Virus record (IMG/VR): IMGVR_UViG_3300025669_000070
Span: 1-42,988 of that record
DNA length: 42,988 bases
Strand: one strand, 5' to 3'
DNA from: a virus
Part shown: positions 25,420 through 42,988 of the stretch, one piece after another
Numbering within the stretch: the stretch's first letter is position 1
Layout of the letters: each line of letters opens with the position of its first letter
Program-made: the position numbers and the translations under genes
Notes under the pieces: generated by a model
Databases searched by the model: none
Told to the model about the DNA's origin: nothing
What the model saw: the letters and a program-made list of their open reading frames with translations, nothing else

Positions 25420-25644
25420 TTATTCATCCTTCATATACCTCCAGGGTTCTTCGACCCACCGCTGGGCAGAGAGTGGATGATCGTTAGTTCCATACGGCAT
25501 ATACGCCTTCCCGTCCCGCACGGCTTGATAGTATCCTGCCCACCCGTTCGGGTCGTTTGGCATGGGGTATCCGGTGTTCCGCCAGGGGTCGTGGGACTGG
25601 CAGCCGGTCAGTAGTAGGATTATGATTATTGTTTTAAGTTTCAT
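25420..25644 (-). CDS. Small lipoprotein (74 aa)
   Basis: Signal peptide KLKTIIIILLLTGC with a perfect LTGC lipobox: cleavage before Cys15, with Gln at +2, which in Gram-negative bacteria favours the outer membrane. The mature ~60 residues are rich in Trp, Pro, Tyr and Asp. ATGA overlap with the methyltransferase stop. It could be an o-spanin or a superinfection-exclusion lipoprotein; it does not lie next to the lysis-like genes. Confidence 0.7.
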   Translation of the reverse strand: MKLKTIIIILLLTGCQSHDPWRNTGYPMPNDPNGWAGYYQAVRDGKAYMPYGTNDHPLSAQRWVEEPWRYMKDE

Positions 25645-26624
25645 TCTATAATCCCATCAAATATGCCCATTTTGTCTTTTTCCTCCCGTATCCGCTTTTG
25701 TGATATTTCAACATAATCGGCGTTTAGCTCAATGCCGATGTAATCCCTATTGAATCTTTCGGCAATCATTCCTGTAGTCCCTGCGCCCGAAAATGGGTCG
25801 AGAACCGTGCCGCCTTCTGGGCATCCTGCTTTTATACATAAGGTCGGTAACTCTGGGGGGAATGTGGCAAAATGTGCCTCTTTGTATGGCTTGGTTGTTA
25901 TTGTCCATACGGAGCGTTTATTGCGGTATCCGTCGCCTGCAATCCTGCTGTCTACGCCTCTACTCTGTCGATCTTTTATGCTCTGAGCGTGACATGCAAC
26001 CTTGTCGTCTATGCCTGTGTTTTTCCCCCTTAATAATCCCAAATCCTTCCCCCCAACCGCATTCTCCCTTATCGCATCCGCATCATAATAATACTTAGCC
26101 GATTTAGTCAGCAGGAATATATATTCATGTGCTTTGGTGCATCTGTCGCGGACTGATTCCGGCATGGGGTTGGGTTTGTGCCAAATTATATCTTGACGCA
26201 AATACCAACCGTATGCCTGTAATTCCAACGCCACTCGCCATGGTATGCCGATCAAGTCTTTTTCTTTTAATCCTTTAAGTTTATTACCACGCCTACCGCA
26301 TTTTTGCGGTAAATCTTGGCCGGTAGAACTTACTGTCTGCTTGGACATTGCCTGCCCTTTGCCCGGTCGGTAATTGTAATAACTATCGCCCAAATTCAGC
26401 CACAAAGTGCCGTCCTTTTTCAATACCCGATGCACCTGATCGAATACCATAATCAACGATCTAACATATTCATCAGGCGTGGCCTCTAGCCCCATCTGTC
26501 CATCTTCGCCATAATCCCTTAACCCGAAATAGGGTGGAGAGGTTACGCAGCAGTTCACTGACTCATCATCTAATATTCTCAACACGTCTAAACAGTCACC
26601 TTGTATAATTTTACTGTTGCTCAT
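25641..26624 (-). CDS. DNA methyltransferase, beta class (327 aa)
   Basis: Catalytic TSPPYFGLRDYG (residues 28-39, motif IV) comes first and the AdoMet motif DPFSGAGTTGMIAERF lies near the C-terminus, so the order is that of beta-class N4-cytosine or N6-adenine methyltransferases. The SPPY form favours N4-cytosine but does not prove it. A DNA-recognition part lies between (IIWHKPNPMPESVRDR). No restriction gene is nearby, so it is probably an orphan enzyme that protects phage DNA or alters host control. Confidence 0.88.
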   Translation of the reverse strand: MSNSKIIQGDCLDVLRILDDESVNCCVTSPPYFGLRDYGEDGQMGLEATPDEYVRSLIMVFDQVHRVLKKDGTLWLNLGDSYYNYRPGKGQAMSKQTVSSTGQDLPQKCGRRGNKLKGLKEKDLIGIPWRVALELQAYGWYLRQDIIWHKPNPMPESVRDRCTKAHEYIFLLTKSAKYYYDADAIRENAVGGKDLGLLRGKNTGIDDKVACHAQSIKDRQSRGVDSRIAGDGYRNKRSVWTITTKPYKEAHFATFPPELPTLCIKAGCPEGGTVLDPFSGAGTTGMIAERFNRDYIGIELNADYVEISQKRIREEKDKMGIFDGIIE

Positions 26625-26805: not shown

Positions 26806-27558
26806 TTACTCAAATAACACCGGCTGATCGTCCGCCTTTGCCGTCGCGTCACGATTTATCCACCATTGCCAGTATTCCTCTGGCGTGAAATCCATTCTAT
26901 TGTCGGGTTTCCATGTTGCCTTAATTGCCCGTTCCCACGCCTTTGCTATTCGCGGCCATCGATTCATGTCTCTCTCGACTTCTCGACTCATTGGACACAT
27001 CACGCAACCAAGGCGGGCAAAGCCCTCGTCATATAACTTACAATAATCTATCTGCTCTGAGCGGATATAATCCCACACGTCACTTGTGCGCCAGTCTATA
27101 ATCACGTTGAGGAAATGTTTACCTCTGCCCCTCATGCACGGTTCTAACATTTTCCGTTTGCTTCGCCTGGCAGATTCGCCCCACCTTACGCCTGTGATAA
27201 CGATTCGACCTTCGCCGCCACCTTCCTTCATGACTCGACAACAATAGCGGGCGTTCCGTCTGGGCGGCATCCCCTTCTTGCGTACCAAAGTCCACATTGT
27301 CATTTCGGGTTGTACTATTTCAACATCTGCCTGTTCTCGGACATGATAAACCAATTCGGGCGGATCGCAGGTTGTGTTATGGTAATGAGCCGTAAACTTC
27401 ACGCCACTTTTGCGGGTCAAGTTTAATATCACGTCAGAATCTTTACCGCCGCTATAGGCTAAATAATAGCCGTCCGAGTGACGGTCTATTGCAGACCGCT
27501 CAAATTCCTGTAATCGACTAATGGCGATTTCTTCAAGTTGCCCAAATAACGTTTTCAT
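26806..27558 (-). CDS. PP-loop PAPS-reductase-like protein (250 aa)
   Basis: SGGKDS at residues 36-41 is the PP-loop of the adenine-nucleotide alpha-hydrolase/PAPS reductase fold. Cys pairs RYCCR (near 105) and GCVMCPM (near 186) could hold an Fe-S cluster, as in DndC-like and many phage homologues. Reaction unknown: sulfur transfer to a nucleic acid is possible, since the methyltransferase is nearby, but the partner Dnd-type genes are absent. Start ATG 27558, with the repeated leader AAGGAATACTGAATA. Confidence 0.82.
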   Translation of the reverse strand: MKTLFGQLEEIAISRLQEFERSAIDRHSDGYYLAYSGGKDSDVILNLTRKSGVKFTAHYHNTTCDPPELVYHVREQADVEIVQPEMTMWTLVRKKGMPPRRNARYCCRVMKEGGGEGRIVITGVRWGESARRSKRKMLEPCMRGRGKHFLNVIIDWRTSDVWDYIRSEQIDYCKLYDEGFARLGCVMCPMSREVERDMNRWPRIAKAWERAIKATWKPDNRMDFTPEEYWQWWINRDATAKADDQPVLFE

Positions 27559-35351: not shown

Positions 35352-38300
35352 CTATAACTTATTAACTGCTCTGGCTCTGATTTTTCCTTCTTGGAAGGAT
35401 CGTTCTTTGCCTGATTTGGCACCGCCAGCTTTACGGCCAGTGGTTTGCGAGTCGTTTTTGAGGGTAGAATATGCTTTGGTTCTCTTGATTTGATCTATTA
35501 AAGTCTGCGGGTCGGTGGGCTTAATCCACCAGCCAGCGAAGTAAGCGTACAGGGCATCTTCAATAGTTCTCTTACCCTGGCCTGCTTCAATAAACTTCTT
35601 AGCATCTGCTCCGAGGATATCGAGAATGGCTCGTTTAAGGGCTTTAATACTACCCGCCTTAGCCACATGTTTAGCCTCCAGAGCGTCAGGAAATGCGGTC
35701 ATACCAAAAATAGCTGTACCCGGTGCCTTTAGGAACGGGTTCAATGACTGGATAACCTTATTAACTGGTGCTTTAGCGATAATCTTAGCTGCTTCCATAG
35801 CAAACTCACCTTGTGGTATGAATCCAGCATCTCTACGCCATTGCAGGGCAGCTAGTTCAGGAGCGTCAAACCATTCAGCGAAGTCAGATAGGGCTGTTTG
35901 GCCCCAAAGGGTTTTATTACCGATATTAATATGAGGAGTACCTCTTTTCCAAAATGCCAACGACTCTTCTTTATTCCTTGCCTCTTCGTCACGATTATTC
36001 CACCAATGGGCCGCAGCGTATCCCGCCAGAACTCTCACTGCCCACTTAGCCATATTCAAGCCGGCGACGACAGCTACCTTTTTACCGGCCTTCTTACCTT
36101 CAGCGGTACCTTCTTTAGTAGCGTTTATGAGCACCCTGGGCCAGAATGTCGCGTTTTTCTTCATCCATGAATAGAACGGGATAGCACCATTTCGCAGTAC
36201 ATTATTCTCCCACGGAGTGAAGTCGCCATAATCCACCATAGTCTCTCTGGATAGCTTAGCTGCCGCTCGTTCTGGATTAACTTCAGCTATAGCATTAATA
36301 TCCGCCTCATCGCCAGCCCAATGACGTAGCTTATTACCGGCTTTAATATTTTCTAGTGTCTCCAGGTATAATGCCATCCTCAATACATCTTCCCGGAACT
36401 GGGTTAGGTTTTGCTCCAGTGTGCCGACAAACGATGCCGCTTTGAATGGTGCAGTCATGACGAACTTAGTTGCGTCTTTAAACCCTTTAGGGGTTGTTAT
36501 ATTTTTGAACCGTTCAAATTCCTTTATTTTGGACACGTCACCCATTTCATGCCATAATGACGTACCAATAGTACCGTATTTAACGGCACCCTTAAACTCA
36601 GGGCTATCCTTCTTCATAAGATGCTCAATAGCTTTAGGGACCAACAACGCCGCTCTCATATGGCCTGAAGCGTTAAATCTCTCTAAATCGCCAAGCTGGT
36701 TACGGGAATTATATCGTAAGGGGTTGATCCGTAGATACCATCGTTTAATAGCCAATACAGCCGGTTTAGTAAACGACTCCACCATCATATTACTAACATG
36801 ATTTACAGGCAGATCATCTAGTTGGGCAGCAATATCAGCGGGAATGAATATCCCACTTCGCTTACCCATTACAAGTGCGTCCCGTATAGCTGACCGGGGT
36901 ATCTCCAATGTATCGCCCATCTCGCCACCGTTAGCCTCAACTATGGAGTTAATAACAGCTTCGTCCACCGTCTTGGCATGATATACTAGATTAGGGCGTT
37001 TAGTCCACCATTCAGCGTAACCCTTGAGCCTGGCCATATCTGCGGTAGTCCTAAAGTGTTTGCCTAACTGTTCATTAATGAATTTCTTCCGGTCGGAGAT
37101 AGCCTTGAATACTCCTCTGGCAGATAATGCGGCTTCAGTCTGTAACTTAGCTTCAGCGGCAAGCTCGGCCATTGTGATATCTTTGTTATCTATATCCTTG
37201 AGTTTAGCAAATTTGGACATATGTATTGCTATTCTCTGGCGGAACGGGCGGGTAGGGTCGAGTTCGTTTAGTTCGCCTATCCATTCTTTCCTCATTGCTC
37301 TTTCGTCAGATTTTTGGGCGTTACCACCTTCTAACGACTCAGCGACCTTGCCTTCCAGTTCGCGTATGCGTTTAACCATATCCTTACCGCCAACCAGTAT
37401 CTCAAAATTCTTATCCTTAGCGGCCTGCTTAAACTCAGCGGTTTTATCATGATACTCAGCTATCTCTATTTGAGCATCCTCAATGGCGTTATCGGCGTAA
37501 ATGTCAGACAATGCCTGCACCTCAACTGATAGGTAGTTAGTGGAGATATCCTTAATATTTTCTATCCTGCCGGTTTTATAAACGCGATAGGGTTCCTTCA
37601 GGCTTTTCCTGCCGCCTTTGAATATTTTGATACTATCCATATAGTCTAAGACGAAGTGGCGGATATATGTTTTATTATCATACCCTTCTTGATCTAATAC
37701 ACCACGATCCAGTAGGTCTTTACCTACATCGTCCCACAACTTCTGCCTGGCTTCAAATGCTTTCTTAACTGACGGAGTTAGGGCAATCTCCCCGTCCAGC
37801 CGTTTATTCTCTGCTTCCCACTGTTCGACGGTTATGCCTCTCGCTACCGACCGTTCCAAGTTAGCTTCATATAACTGATCCTGAGCAAACACCTTACGAC
37901 GAAGTAGTTCTAAGCCAGCTTTATCTAAAGCCTGAACCGATCCGTCACCGTTCAGGAAGTCAATAATATCCCTTATCGCCTGCTCCTTAGCTGCCCGCTG
38001 AATCTCTGGCAACGTCCTAATTATGTCTCTAGCGAGTGCGTTAGCGGGTGTTCTGATTATGTGGGGAGTATTTACAAACCTTTCGCGTATCCCGCCTTTA
38101 ATTTTGAAAACTATCTCACTAGCCTTATTCCTCATATCGTTGGGGGCTATATTGGTTTCTTCAAATAACCCCTCTATCTCAGCGTCAGGCGACTTAATCT
38201 TATCCATCGTGAGGCGTGGCACCTGTTTTTTGCCTTTAGGTCTACCCTTACCTGGTAGTGCTGCGAATCCGCCTGGGCCATCTATATCTTCTTCAGTTGT

Positions 38301-41300
38301 GGGATCGGGAGTGAACAGATCGCCTTCGTCGGGCTTTGATTCAGGAGCTTTCTTTTTGATTGGCGCTGGTTTCTTTTTAGTTACTCCAGATTCAAACAGC
38401 TTACTCTGTCCCTCAATATCACCAGCTTCATTAACCTCATCTTTAGTCTTATCAGTTTTGAAGTCTTCTATATCTAGGAACTCTTTTTGTTCACCTGTAG
38501 CACCTTCTTTAGCCAATGACTGATCGAATAAATCTAAATCTACTTCGCCGGTTTGGGCTTCTTCAAGTCCACCGAAGATGTCGTCAACGATTTCTCCTGA
38601 GTCGGCACGGAGGATTTCTTCTTCAACTGAAAGCGGTTGTGCCACTGTCTCCGCATCTCCTTCGCCAAGTCCTGTAGTTCCTTGCTCATCTCTATACTCC
38701 TGTATGAATTTCATTGCACCTGGGCCTGCGTCTGACATATTTAAATCAGGCTCACCCTCTATAATATTATTTAACACCTGACCTATATGATGATCCTGCA
38801 TTAATGGGTTCTTACGCTGTTGTGCTTTTAAGTTCAATAGATGATCGTTTATCTTCTGTTTTTTCGACCGTTCTGGAGCAGGATTACGAACAAACGCATC
38901 CTCGCCCAACTCGGCTCTAACTTCAGCTATAGCCTTCTTGGGCGCCAGCCAGTAGTTCTCACCCTTAGTATTCGTAATTTCCCATACCTCATCGGTCTTG
39001 ACTTTTAGAGCTTTAATAACGGCAGGCAAGCGAGTGGGCAGTCTATCCAACTCCTGCCGCCCTCTCATCCCTATCTTCGTCCTGTCAGCCGTTCCTTTAG
39101 GCATAAGTAGATTAGTGCCGGTGTCAACGAGTTTAGGTAACGCTACCCACTTCTTTTCTATAAAGGTATATGAACTCTTCTTAGCCGGGACAGGTTTAGC
39201 AATATTACGAGCAGACTTAACGGCTTCATTAAATGCTTTTCTCGCAGCAGCTTTGGTTGGGAATGACTTAACTGTAATAGTCTCGCCTGAATCAATATCA
39301 AACGTCCTAATGGATGGGCCTTTATGCCCTTTGAATATCTTAAATTCAATACCATCAACTACTTTAATGGTTTCGCCTTTGCGGAAGGCTTCGATTTTAT
39401 CGGTTTTCTGGCTCACTTCCGGCGATTTCTGATCCACAACGGGCTTTGTAGTTGCCTGTATAGCGGACTGTGTTGGTTTTTTGTCCGGCGTGGTGGTGAC
39501 TGGGTCAGCCACTTCAGGTCGCTTTAGGTCACTTTGGGTCACTTTAGGGGCAGTTTTGGTCGGTTTAGTGGTGAATTCCCTAACTGGCGTTAATTGGTTT
39601 ATATCAAAAACAGCCGTAGTTTTACCTAGCATAACATCATCTTGATAAGACAAACTGTCATAACCCAATTCTTTAAGCTGTGGAATTAAAACTTTGTCCC
39701 ATGCTTCTTGAGTGTGCGGTTTAGTATTAACCCACCATCCCAGTGTAGATTGATTTTTTACCTGTCTGAACATAGCATCGTTGATAATCTTTGATGCTTC
39801 TGGATCACCTTCAGAAGATAGTTTGGACAAGACCCCTAAAGCCTTATTATCAGTTATACTTAAAGTGTTTTTAGCATCAGCCTTTAATACTTGAACTTGA
39901 GATAATTCCTCTTCTACCTGTCCTGACTCAAAAGCATCCATCGCTTCTTCTTCGCTCGCGAAAGTACCTCCTCTAATAAACGCCGCCGCCGCATCTTTAT
40001 TCTCAGTAAGATTAATTAAGCCTGTAGTCCTTTTAGGGCCAGACTCGCCTCGGAAAAATATCTTATCTCCTTCTTTAGCCGTAGGTACTAAATCCCCCAC
40101 CCCAGCCGCATCAGCTTTAATTACTTCCTGTGGTGTTGTCTCTGATGGCTGGGGGGCGGGGGGTTGTATTGTGATATCAGCTATCCGCTTAGCGTTGTTT
40201 ACGGTATTCTTAAATTCTTTTTTAGCGACACTGGCAGATGGATGGTGGATAATCCCTATCACTTCGCCGCTTTCAACATCGCGGGCTTGTATGCCATGTC
40301 CCGTAGCATCTTTAATTAAAGTATATTCAGTTCCAGATATAACCTCTGTCTTGCCTAGTGACACCTGCACTGGTTCAGTTTCAGTTGGTTCTGTTTTTAC
40401 CCCATCGGCAAGATCGGAATCAATTTGTCTCTGCTTCTCTAGCGATGCCTGCCGCCGCTCAGCAGCACCCTTGCTCCGCAGATTCTTTTTCTGTTGTTTA
40501 GTTAGCTTCGGTTGTTTTTGAGTCTGTTCGTCTATAGTCTGCTGTGCCATAGCCTGTAAATCTTCAGTCTCAGTGGCGCGTTGCTCTTGAGCGAGATTAA
40601 AGTCGCGTTTCAAGTCTTCAACAACACCTACGGGTTGGGTTATGTCAGCTAGACTGGTTAATGCTCTCCGTTGACCTGTCTCAAATTCTTGCTGGAATTG
40701 CTTTCTCTTCTGACTATTTTGAGCTATATTAAACGCATCAACCGTTTGTTTAACCCGTTCACCTTGCTGATCCAGTTTTTGCCCATGTTCCACTATCTCT
40801 GTCGGACCACCAGACAGTCCACCAACTAAGTATCCTGAAGCCATGGAATTTACAATCTGGCTAACTTCTTCGTCAGTAAACCAATCAGCGTTTCTCTCAA
40901 CTACTCGCATAGCGGCTATGTTTATTATAGCCTGGCCACCTTCGGTTAATGATTCAAAGCCTCCCTGTATAGCCATACCTGTTGTTGTTTTTTTAATATA
41001 CCCCATAGCCGTAAGCTCTTTCACGACTGCGTTTTGAAATGCTTTTTTAGTTCCTGTTTTTTTAAGTAAGCGATTAATGGGTAGTAATTCTAAAGCACCA
41101 GCAATAGTGCCAAAGGTCGTTGACACCCAAGGAGCCGTTTCACCTGTCTTTTTATATATATTTAAGTATATATCACCCGTCTCCATCATGGAAGCGACTG
41201 CAAAACCACCCGCAGGACCAACAACGGTACTAGCACCTATAATAGAGGCGAGGACAGGTATTTGTTGTCCGATTACGCCATTAGCCCAACTGATCGCATC

Positions 41301-42047
41301 AACTGGGTTTTTAATATCTTCTACCGATGGAACCCTTGCTCTTAATTCTTCATGAGGTACAAACTTAGCAGCCTTGCCTATCCAAAAATCTCTAACTTTG
41401 CCTAAATATTCTTGCTCAGGCAAACCAAGTCCTTCAATAGTATCTTTCATTATGGCTGCCGCATTTGACATATTAGCCATAGCTCCGCTGCCTATTCCTA
41501 TCGTACCACTTACTACGCCTTTAGCTAATTCGGTACCCGAAGCAACCCTGGCACTAGGTTCAAACGGGTCAGACATGCCAGCGAATAACCCACCAGCCGA
41601 AGTCGGGCCAAGCTCCTGTACTAATTCTTCTTTACGTTTTTCGGGAGTAAATGACTGTGAATCTTGTGTTAAAAAACCACCGACACCCTCTGGTGATTCC
41701 AATGGCTTTCGCTGTGAAAAATCATTTATAGCGTTGGGTACCAAACCACCTTCAATAATACTTTGTAGATTTTTAATGTTTTGTGGGACAAACTTCTCGT
41801 TAGCTACTTCTGGCTCATCAAACACCTCACCGCCGCCAAAATCAAACTCAGCATTGGATGGATCATCCTTGCCAGCTATAAATGATTCTGCCGAACCTGG
41901 TAGGATGGAGGCGGGGGCTGGGGGTAAAACATTGCTAGCAGTAGACGTAGGTTCAAAATCAGCAACCGACAGTCCAGACGTTTTAGGCTCAAAATCATCT
42001 ACCGACAGTTTAAGAGACTTCGATTCAAAATCTTCAACAGTTAGCAT
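35352..42047 (-). CDS. Giant polyvalent virion protein with ADP-ribosyltransferase-like domain (2231 aa)
   Basis: The start is ATG 42047, five bases after GGGAG. N-terminus: three repeats of L(S/T)VxDFE(P/S) in residues 2-37. A hydrophobic helical part lies around 180-330. Two copies of a ~50-residue domain (GTEYTLI...NAKRIA near 569-623 and DGIEFKIF...ARNIA near 899-949) flank a segment at ~663-819 with FFRGESG, LGYDSLSYQDD and an ending VFDINQL. This is the ART-PolyVal type of ADP-ribosyltransferase-like domain. The C-terminal ~450 residues (NPLRYNSRNQLGDLE, IPFYSWMKKNATFWPR and a membrane-like helix near 2000) match large polyvalent-protein ends. Probably packed in the head and injected with DNA. 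Confidence 0.8.
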   Translation of the reverse strand: MLTVEDFESKSLKLSVDDFEPKTSGLSVADFEPTSTASNVLPPAPASILPGSAESFIAGKDDPSNAEFDFGGGEVFDEPEVANEKFVPQNIKNLQSIIEGGLVPNAINDFSQRKPLESPEGVGGFLTQDSQSFTPEKRKEELVQELGPTSAGGLFAGMSDPFEPSARVASGTELAKGVVSGTIGIGSGAMANMSNAAAIMKDTIEGLGLPEQEYLGKVRDFWIGKAAKFVPHEELRARVPSVEDIKNPVDAISWANGVIGQQIPVLASIIGASTVVGPAGGFAVASMMETGDIYLNIYKKTGETAPWVSTTFGTIAGALELLPINRLLKKTGTKKAFQNAVVKELTAMGYIKKTTTGMAIQGGFESLTEGGQAIINIAAMRVVERNADWFTDEEVSQIVNSMASGYLVGGLSGGPTEIVEHGQKLDQQGERVKQTVDAFNIAQNSQKRKQFQQEFETGQRRALTSLADITQPVGVVEDLKRDFNLAQEQRATETEDLQAMAQQTIDEQTQKQPKLTKQQKKNLRSKGAAERRQASLEKQRQIDSDLADGVKTEPTETEPVQVSLGKTEVISGTEYTLIKDATGHGIQARDVESGEVIGIIHHPSASVAKKEFKNTVNNAKRIADITIQPPAPQPSETTPQEVIKADAAGVGDLVPTAKEGDKIFFRGESGPKRTTGLINLTENKDAAAAFIRGGTFASEEEAMDAFESGQVEEELSQVQVLKADAKNTLSITDNKALGVLSKLSSEGDPEASKIINDAMFRQVKNQSTLGWWVNTKPHTQEAWDKVLIPQLKELGYDSLSYQDDVMLGKTTAVFDINQLTPVREFTTKPTKTAPKVTQSDLKRPEVADPVTTTPDKKPTQSAIQATTKPVVDQKSPEVSQKTDKIEAFRKGETIKVVDGIEFKIFKGHKGPSIRTFDIDSGETITVKSFPTKAAARKAFNEAVKSARNIAKPVPAKKSSYTFIEKKWVALPKLVDTGTNLLMPKGTADRTKIGMRGRQELDRLPTRLPAVIKALKVKTDEVWEITNTKGENYWLAPKKAIAEVRAELGEDAFVRNPAPERSKKQKINDHLLNLKAQQRKNPLMQDHHIGQVLNNIIEGEPDLNMSDAGPGAMKFIQEYRDEQGTTGLGEGDAETVAQPLSVEEEILRADSGEIVDDIFGGLEEAQTGEVDLDLFDQSLAKEGATGEQKEFLDIEDFKTDKTKDEVNEAGDIEGQSKLFESGVTKKKPAPIKKKAPESKPDEGDLFTPDPTTEEDIDGPGGFAALPGKGRPKGKKQVPRLTMDKIKSPDAEIEGLFEETNIAPNDMRNKASEIVFKIKGGIRERFVNTPHIIRTPANALARDIIRTLPEIQRAAKEQAIRDIIDFLNGDGSVQALDKAGLELLRRKVFAQDQLYEANLERSVARGITVEQWEAENKRLDGEIALTPSVKKAFEARQKLWDDVGKDLLDRGVLDQEGYDNKTYIRHFVLDYMDSIKIFKGGRKSLKEPYRVYKTGRIENIKDISTNYLSVEVQALSDIYADNAIEDAQIEIAEYHDKTAEFKQAAKDKNFEILVGGKDMVKRIRELEGKVAESLEGGNAQKSDERAMRKEWIGELNELDPTRPFRQRIAIHMSKFAKLKDIDNKDITMAELAAEAKLQTEAALSARGVFKAISDRKKFINEQLGKHFRTTADMARLKGYAEWWTKRPNLVYHAKTVDEAVINSIVEANGGEMGDTLEIPRSAIRDALVMGKRSGIFIPADIAAQLDDLPVNHVSNMMVESFTKPAVLAIKRWYLRINPLRYNSRNQLGDLERFNASGHMRAALLVPKAIEHLMKKDSPEFKGAVKYGTIGTSLWHEMGDVSKIKEFERFKNITTPKGFKDATKFVMTAPFKAASFVGTLEQNLTQFREDVLRMALYLETLENIKAGNKLRHWAGDEADINAIAEVNPERAAAKLSRETMVDYGDFTPWENNVLRNGAIPFYSWMKKNATFWPRVLINATKEGTAEGKKAGKKVAVVAGLNMAKWAVRVLAGYAAAHWWNNRDEEARNKEESLAFWKRGTPHINIGNKTLWGQTALSDFAEWFDAPELAALQWRRDAGFIPQGEFAMEAAKIIAKAPVNKVIQSLNPFLKAPGTAIFGMTAFPDALEAKHVAKAGSIKALKRAILDILGADAKKFIEAGQGKRTIEDALYAYFAGWWIKPTDPQTLIDQIKRTKAYSTLKNDSQTTGRKAGGAKSGKERSFQEGKIRARAVNKL

Positions 42048-42048
42048 A

Positions 42049-42985
42049 TTAACTCCCAAGTGTATCTATAAATGCTTGTTTTTCTTCTCTAGTAGCGTTT
42101 GGATTCTGCGATATGAACGCATCATATTTAGCCTGCTGGACAGGGGTAACGCCAGTTGCTTGTTTCTTTATGGGAGCCACTACTCCTACATTTTCTTCTT
42201 CAGATGGCTCATCACCTTCAAAGCTACCGCTAGCCTTCTTCCTGATATCATCATTAGCACGCTGAAGCTCACCCTTCCTCTGTGCTAAACGATTGAGAGC
42301 AGAGCTGGATAGATATTCAGGATCAGTTACGGTTTTTCCTCTCGACGCTTCTACCTTATCTTCAATGTCATTTATATTACTTAGGTTATCCCTGAAAGCG
42401 GTATGACCTAAAGCTAATGACTCCTTGGACATGCCGCCACCGCTACCACCCCGTCTGACTTTCGCTATATCCATCTTGTTCTTTTGCACCAAAGCATCAT
42501 GGGAAGCAATAGCATCCGCTCTCATCTTATAGAAGTTCAGGTTATTATCTTCTGGGGTAGCTAGTGGATTCTGTTCTATATCTGGAGTTCTCCCTGCAAA
42601 CTCTCTCAGGGTTTTATTATTATTTAAGCCGAAATTAACAATAGCATTGTCAATTACGCTATTTCCTTCTTGTCCTATCTTCTTCTTTGTTATAATATTG
42701 GTTATTTGGTTCTGTGCCTGGACTGGCGTTTTACCGTCTGGGTCCATTATACTCATACCCTGGCTTAAAAATCCAAAATACTTCTTCTGATCTGCGGGGG
42801 ACAGGGTTTGTCCGTGAGCGAGCATCATTGGCAATACTTTATTAAACTCTGCATTTTGTTTCATCTTGAGTTCATACTGCCTCCTTGTTTCCGCTTCTCT
42901 TAATTTACGTTCATTCTCGGAAGCAATTAACGCATCTTCACGATTCCTATCCTCAGTTCTCTGAGAATCTTCACGTTTATTCTCA
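42049..42985 (-). CDS. C-terminal part of the 347-aa virion-type helical protein (5' end at 233)
   Basis: The frame is open from the right edge to the stop at 42049-42051. The visible internal ATG at 42864 is residue 77 of the full 347-aa protein that starts at 233 on the other side of the contig join. Features: a Gly-rich linker (RRGGSGGGMSKE) after a helical region, a charged helix (RLAQRKGELQRANDDI) and an acidic stretch (EGDEPSEEEN), then a short C-terminal helix (TREEKQAFIDTL). Stop and next start lie two bases apart. Unknown function; likely an internal virion protein. Confidence 0.8.
42860..42985. repeat. Direct terminal repeat, right copy
   Basis: Identical to positions 1-126. The final three bases of the window differ from the continuation at 127. 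Confidence 0.93.
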
Positions 42986-42988
42986 TGC

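Follow-up and report, generated by a model that had tools for sequence, protein, structure and literature searches.

The virus genome in IMG/VR record IMGVR_UViG_3300025669_000070 (42,988 bases, all of which constitute the window analyzed here) contains a single open reading frame of 2231 codons that occupies 15.6% of the record, in keeping with the share of about 16% given in an earlier note on this DNA, and the question arises as to what kind of protein this giant gene encodes. From sequence comparisons, we consider it likely that the phage is podovirus-like and that the product is an ejection protein which is packaged in the virion and belongs to the polyvalent class, an ejectosome subunit and a payload resembling an ADP-ribosyltransferase (ART) being fused in its one chain. 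Polyvalent proteins unite in one polypeptide several domains with disparate activities, which come from the polyvalent domain network (PMC5512222). Their injection has been proposed from sequence.

A giant gene closes the virion gene cluster

The frame, which the earlier note had placed at 35352-42047, is present there on the minus strand, running from an ATG at 42047 to a stop at 35352-35354. A Shine-Dalgarno sequence, GGGAG, lies just 5' of the ATG, which is itself one base past the TAA (42049) of the upstream gene. A frame of 2231 codons that, over its C-terminal 950 residues, shares 41-45% identity with two other phage proteins is not due to chance. The gene and its principal parts are as follows.

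35352..42047, minus strand: gene for the putative polyvalent or ejection protein, 2231 aa (open reading frame, start, Shine-Dalgarno sequence; homologues in 32 contigs)
35355..38195, minus strand: C-terminal module, residues ~1285-2231, outside Pfam and apparently a relative of cyanophage A4 pre-ejectosome chain A (iterated searches, profile comparison)
36165..36182, minus strand: IPFYSW, residues 1956-1961, the most conserved core of the module (31 aligned sequences)
39573..40070, minus strand: divergent ART-like domain, residues ~660-825, with R666 in strand 1, GYD at 795-797 and QDD at 802-804 (hhalign tiles, AlphaFold 2 (AF2) and Foldseek, alignment)

The giant gene is on the same strand as, and directly downstream of, the terminase, portal, capsid and tail-fibre-like genes, which are reached across the record ends. 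PHROG matches on this side were to terminase, portal, major head protein, virion structural and tail-fibre-like families, and those on the other side were to an exonuclease, a Sak4-like protein, helicases and a primase, with recombination genes directly after the giant gene. This order puts the giant gene at the end of the virion cluster, where genes for internal or ejection proteins usually lie.

The C-terminal module resembles a cyanophage pre-ejectosome subunit

Iterated searches with the C-terminal ~950 residues, checked with phmmer, located the module in 20 viral and 12 prokaryotic genome contigs (designated here by L numbers). The closest relatives, L002 and L003, are 41-45% identical to the module of the 2231-residue protein, and the remainder are about 20-26% identical. 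Wherever the reading frame reaches its stop, the module is C-terminal. The shortest relative has 1,118 residues and the longest over 4,341. The curated domains found upstream of it include ART-PolyVal, LPD3, ddrB-ParB, RadC, GGDEF and SNF2/strawberry-notch helicases, as well as methylases, MuF_C, PBECR2, PBECR3, InPase, SLT and NlpC/P60. The module itself had no curated Pfam match. Its strongest signature, across the 31 aligned sequences, is IPF[YW]SW..N, in which P, F and S are invariant and W nearly so. The polyvalent-type C terminus proposed earlier is thus supported, as the module recurs in proteins with curated ART-PolyVal and other polyvalent domains.

A solved structure gives this module a candidate function. 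In PDB entry 9k3a, chain A is A4L_26 (1114 aa) and chain B is A4L_27 (1717 aa), the products of neighbouring genes of Anabaena phage A-4L (KF356198); the title of the paper and the PDB entries describe the A4 machine, determined by cryo-electron microscopy, as a pentameric pre-ejectosome in the capsid. For profile comparison, a chain A family was assembled from A4L_26 homologues of five further cyanophages, and a chain B family from A4L_27 homologues of four of those. The module profile matched the chain A family with a score of 55.8 (P 2.7e-5, probability 74%), collinear over 349 columns, and the reversed control and 20 block-shuffled controls scored at most 28.4. Against the chain B family the same profile gave P 0.82. 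A profile made of the 2231-residue protein and ART-PolyVal sequences matched the chain B family with P 7.6e-7, the shuffles being at 0.075 or worse. One chain B homologue is annotated as mono-ADP-ribosyltransferase-like, with a weak match, far below the cut-off, to the model of XopAI, a secreted effector.

From these comparisons, the 2231-residue gene looks like a fusion of what the A4-type phages (Saffermanviridae) encode as gp27 (the ART-bearing chain B) and gp26 (~1100 residues, chain A). Packaging and ejection of the 2231-residue protein are supported by this distant homology, and the virion or ejection role put forward in the earlier note gains from it as well as from the position at the end of the virion cluster.

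Two observations concern the chain A and chain B families themselves. The 9k3a proteins and their homologues (H24-H42) are annotated as tail fiber protein/host specificity, DNA-directed RNA polymerase or peptidoglycan hydrolase. In the chain B homologue of Plectonema phage Pbo-yong3 (L038:4583-8995), ART-like sequence appears to occur twice: near residue 661, as an FHGTR block, and at 1265-1413, where the XopAI model matches weakly.

Residues 660-825 form a divergent ART-like block

The earlier note had seen a likeness to an ART-PolyVal domain in three short blocks, FFRGES, SYQDD and VFDINQL, and all three were located. Within residues 660-825 the recognizable blocks are FFRGE, LINLTENKDAA, LKELGYDSLSYQDD and TTAVFDINQL, with FFRGES at residue 664, GYDSLSYQDD at 795 and TTAVFDINQL at 810. 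An ART-PolyVal profile was built from four ART-PolyVal domains of relatives, and the 2231-residue protein was compared with it in tiles by hhalign. Only the tiles holding the block (651-975) matched, with P 2-3e-4, and the others gave 0.13 or worse. When an AF2 model of the block was compared with the PDB by Foldseek, chain B of the A4 pre-ejectosome, MbcT, AcrIF11 and NatT ranked highest, followed by tankyrases, at expectation values (E) of 0.013 to about 1. These were all of the ART fold, save a few pantothenate kinases of negligible probability.

The curated PF18760 model did not match the window even at E 10, while the same search detected PF18760 in relatives. The block is accordingly not assigned to PF18760. 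A profile search for ART families, suggested in the earlier note, thus has a divided outcome, with the family-built profile matching and the curated model not; likewise, the ART-like character of the block was supported by the hhalign tiles, Foldseek and the chain B family profile, and formal ART-PolyVal membership was not supported. Other searches with the block added nothing. As a query it found none in the viral contigs; the PDB sequence search found none with the block alone, and only chance matches with an alignment as query. Among the phage records, tblastn with the block reached E 0.9 at best, which is not significant; this match was to mosaic jhp1044-like proteins of Helicobacter cinaedi, which represent a known polyvalent type.

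The residues H (strand 1), Y (strand 2) and D (strand 5) define the ART-PolyVal/Tox-ART-HYD2 clade, and an Arg in strand 1 is normal in R-S-E ARTs (PMC5512222). For an R-S-E site of the T4 Alt/ModA type, R666 is present, and S-T-S or E-x-E was not seen by eye, no profile search having been made. In the relative L033, YRGT stands for YHGT in an otherwise good ART pattern, so Arg666 may be a variant. A candidate ART block in L002 ('RTLYRQGR...') was rejected at an hhalign P of 0.66. Overall, residues 660-825 are weakly ART-like and probably have an ART fold, as judged from the model and alignments, and the activity of the block is uncertain. The C-terminal module is the firmer of the two results.

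Alternative explanations

Several results weigh against an ejection protein fused to an ART-like payload. No Pfam, PHROG or NCBIfam model matched the whole 2231-residue protein or pieces of it. With the 2231-residue sequence alone, P was 0.03-0.09 (not significant) for the chain A family and 0.01 for the chain B family, and the link therefore runs via families and not directly from this sequence. The AF2 model, computed from a small alignment, had a predicted local distance difference test score (pLDDT) of 52 and a predicted template-modelling score of 0.46, although pLDDT was 70-80 in the core strands; the ART structure prediction proposed in the earlier note therefore amounts to a low-confidence model with ART-fold top matches at E 0.013-0.06, none reaching E 0.001. 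There is also a circular element, in that the alignment behind the model included ART-PolyVal homologues. Finally, in the aligned H-Y-D site the strand-1 His is replaced by R666 and the strand-2 Tyr is absent, with D797 or D803/D804 kept, and the loss of His and Tyr makes activity doubtful. The altered site would suit an ejection or channel protein in which the ART-like block has degenerated to a relic that no longer catalyzes, or is a structural insert, and we regard this as a serious though tentative alternative. In its favor, besides the altered site and the lack of a PF18760 match, the module relatives are often without a detectable PF18760 domain, which was found in 4 of the 20 viral records and not in the close relative L003. 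The retained strand-5 acidic residues (GYD797, QDD802-804) speak against a relic, as do the YRGT of L033, by which Arg could be a clade variant, and the Arg that is normal in R-S-E ARTs (PMC5512222).

The opposite possibility, that the domain is an active anti-defense enzyme which enters with the DNA and, in the manner of AcrIF11 or T4 Alt, targets a protein of host immunity or transcription, appears rather doubtful. AcrIF11 (6kyf) is among the top Foldseek matches (probability 0.94), and its essential acidic pair, D115/E116 (D146/E147 in a homologue), lies in an LG[YF]..[SG][VL]..[QE]D[ED] context resembling the LGYDSLSYQDD of the 2231-residue protein. However, a direct alignment with AcrIF11 was not significant, since 262 and 317 of 1000 shuffles were equally good, and the AF2 model is of low confidence. 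We think it less probable still that the ART resemblance is a false lead, with residues 640-835 having another fold and the short GYD...FD likeness being coincidence. The hhalign matches do span just 32-44 columns, and ART homologues were in the AF2 alignment; on the other side, strand 1 ([FY]RG[ET]), the strand-2 region and strands 5-6 are ART-like in the correct order, and among the relatives, proteins of this same kind bear curated ARTs. That the gene product belongs to the tail, as a fibre or an associated protein, instead of being an internal ejection protein is suggested by annotations of cyanophage homologues as tail protein or tail fibre, but two proteins so annotated form chains A and B of PDB 9k3a, the A4 pre-ejectosome, and a separate tail-fibre-like gene is present at 235-2562 in the same genome, leaving this explanation very improbable.

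N-terminal repeats and other features of the protein

The remaining features of the 2231-residue protein are as follows.

41949..42044, minus strand: 12-residue motif L[ST]V[AED]DFE[PS] in three tandem copies, residues 2-33, seen in the sequence; putative docking or packaging signal
40770..41351, minus strand: N-terminal hydrophobic/helical domain, residues ~233-426, holding the strongest hydropathy peak (258-276)
40179..40355, minus strand: first copy of a small domain that occurs twice, residues 565-623, preceding the ART-like block (alignment to the second copy)
39198..39377, minus strand: second copy of this domain, residues 891-950, following the ART-like block (alignment to the first copy)
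36021..36077, minus strand: borderline hydrophobic segment, residues 1991-2009, a possible membrane helix (Kyte-Doolittle mean 1.36)

At the start of many proteins with the C-terminal module, a short peptide that varies by phage is repeated in tandem, in two to four copies. Such peptides were noted, besides the 2231-residue protein, in L003, L005, L010, L012, L017, L023, L025, L026 and L033, and the types include LxVxDFEP (in the 2231-residue protein), PxGFVLD, PRDLLA, FNPDFNPD, WNTDxETLxQL, FxFIDD and FDxFKxDM, the last of ~30 residues. The tandem peptide looks like a lineage-specific address or docking signal. When the other proteins encoded on these contigs were searched for the N-terminal motif, nothing convincing emerged.

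Residues 282-426 match the N-terminal region of L008 (E 3e-9). The two ~60-residue domain copies that flank the ART-like block aligned with a score of 99, compared to a mean of 24 and a maximum of 49 for shuffles. Concerning the C-terminal membrane helix of the earlier note, the 19-residue hydropathy peak at residues 1991-2009 is borderline and the second best, the highest (mean 1.61) lying at residues 258-276. A tblastn search with the whole protein against 50,697 phage and 72,556 plasmid records found nothing significant, and LPD38 (PF18857) had no match in the 42,988-base record or four relatives, nor in the control genomes.

The record and neighboring genes

The record ends share a 126-base direct repeat (1-126 and 42860-42985, three bases short of the right end), and the genome is therefore near-complete. 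The repeat lies inside the gene upstream of the giant gene.

42049..42988, minus strand: 3' part of the adjacent upstream gene, a candidate internal virion protein; the gene starts at 233 and crosses the record ends

Its product has 347 or 390 aa depending on how the terminal repeat is read, the collapsed and tandem readings both being in frame. With its C-terminal ~100 residues, the product of the tail-fibre-like gene (235-2562) matches several tail-fibre and baseplate families, unrelated to each other, at their ends; this is expected of an intramolecular chaperone end. Elsewhere, a phosphoadenosine phosphosulfate reductase-like gene lies at 26806-27558 (phrog_424, E 8e-38), and a DNA methyltransferase-like gene at 25641-26624 shares 53% identity across 340 residues with one that lies close to the module-bearing gene of Sphingopyxis flava (L027), a hint at an alphaproteobacterial host.

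Proposed mechanism and significance

The sequence analysis establishes the gene, its position, its domain order and the homology of its C terminus. Taking the giant gene product as an ejection protein with an ART-like payload, we infer a docking role for the N-terminal motifs, a channel role for the module and delivery of the payload. The protein would be made late in infection, and the N-terminal repeats, the C-terminal module or both would dock it in the capsid close to the portal. At infection, it would exit via the tail ahead of or together with the DNA, and the module would join a trans-envelope ejection channel. The ART-like domain could thus reach the periplasm or cytoplasm and, if still active, modify an early target. 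The earlier note went further, crediting such proteins with disarming the host or its defenses before phage gene expression; that step was drawn from the protein class and found no support here.

A broader idea, which we hold tentatively at somewhat short of even confidence, is that the module is a general ejection vehicle, namely, a conserved ejectosome subunit fused to or paired with interchangeable payloads (ART, nuclease, methylase-helicase, peptidoglycan hydrolase) in short-tailed phages and prophages, with the tandem N-terminal peptide as packaging address. A module common to 33 proteins and tied to a solved pre-ejectosome subunit would offer a concrete route of delivery, in which channel building and payload transport both fall to the module. 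If so, such polyvalent proteins would be ejectosome parts carrying cargo and not free cargo, the same C-terminal end in otherwise dissimilar proteins would be explained, and the database names tail fibre, host specificity and DNA-directed RNA polymerase would be wrong for such entries. The polyvalent class and the podophage ejectosome are already known; the fusion and the link from module to pre-ejectosome were not found in a limited literature search.

Comparison with known systems

Unlike the N4-type virion RNA polymerase, the 2231-residue protein was not found to have an RNA polymerase domain. AcrIF11 resembles it by Foldseek and in the context of its acidic pair, but AcrIF11 has the His, and the sequence similarity is not significant. 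AcrIF11 is not known to be a virion protein. With ART-PolyVal PF18760 of the Tox-ART-HYD2 clade, the block shares the order and spacing of the strand-1, strand-2 and strand-5/6 blocks and GYD...FD.nQ, yet it falls below detection by the curated model, has R for H and is without the Y.

Phage polyvalent proteins (Iyer et al. 2017, PMC5512222) are likewise very large and multidomain in a late-gene context, and the C-terminal module also occurs in proteins with curated polyvalent domains; the 2231-residue protein differs in having one enzyme-like domain detected and no curated LPD, MPTase or ART match. In the A4 pre-ejectosome, two adjacent genes stand where a single fused chain of 2231 residues is found here, and the ART of chain B retains the HGT and the strand-2 Tyr that this protein lacks. 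Nevertheless, the module resembles chain A by profile, the ART-like block resembles the ART of chain B, and in both systems the genes follow those for the head and tail.

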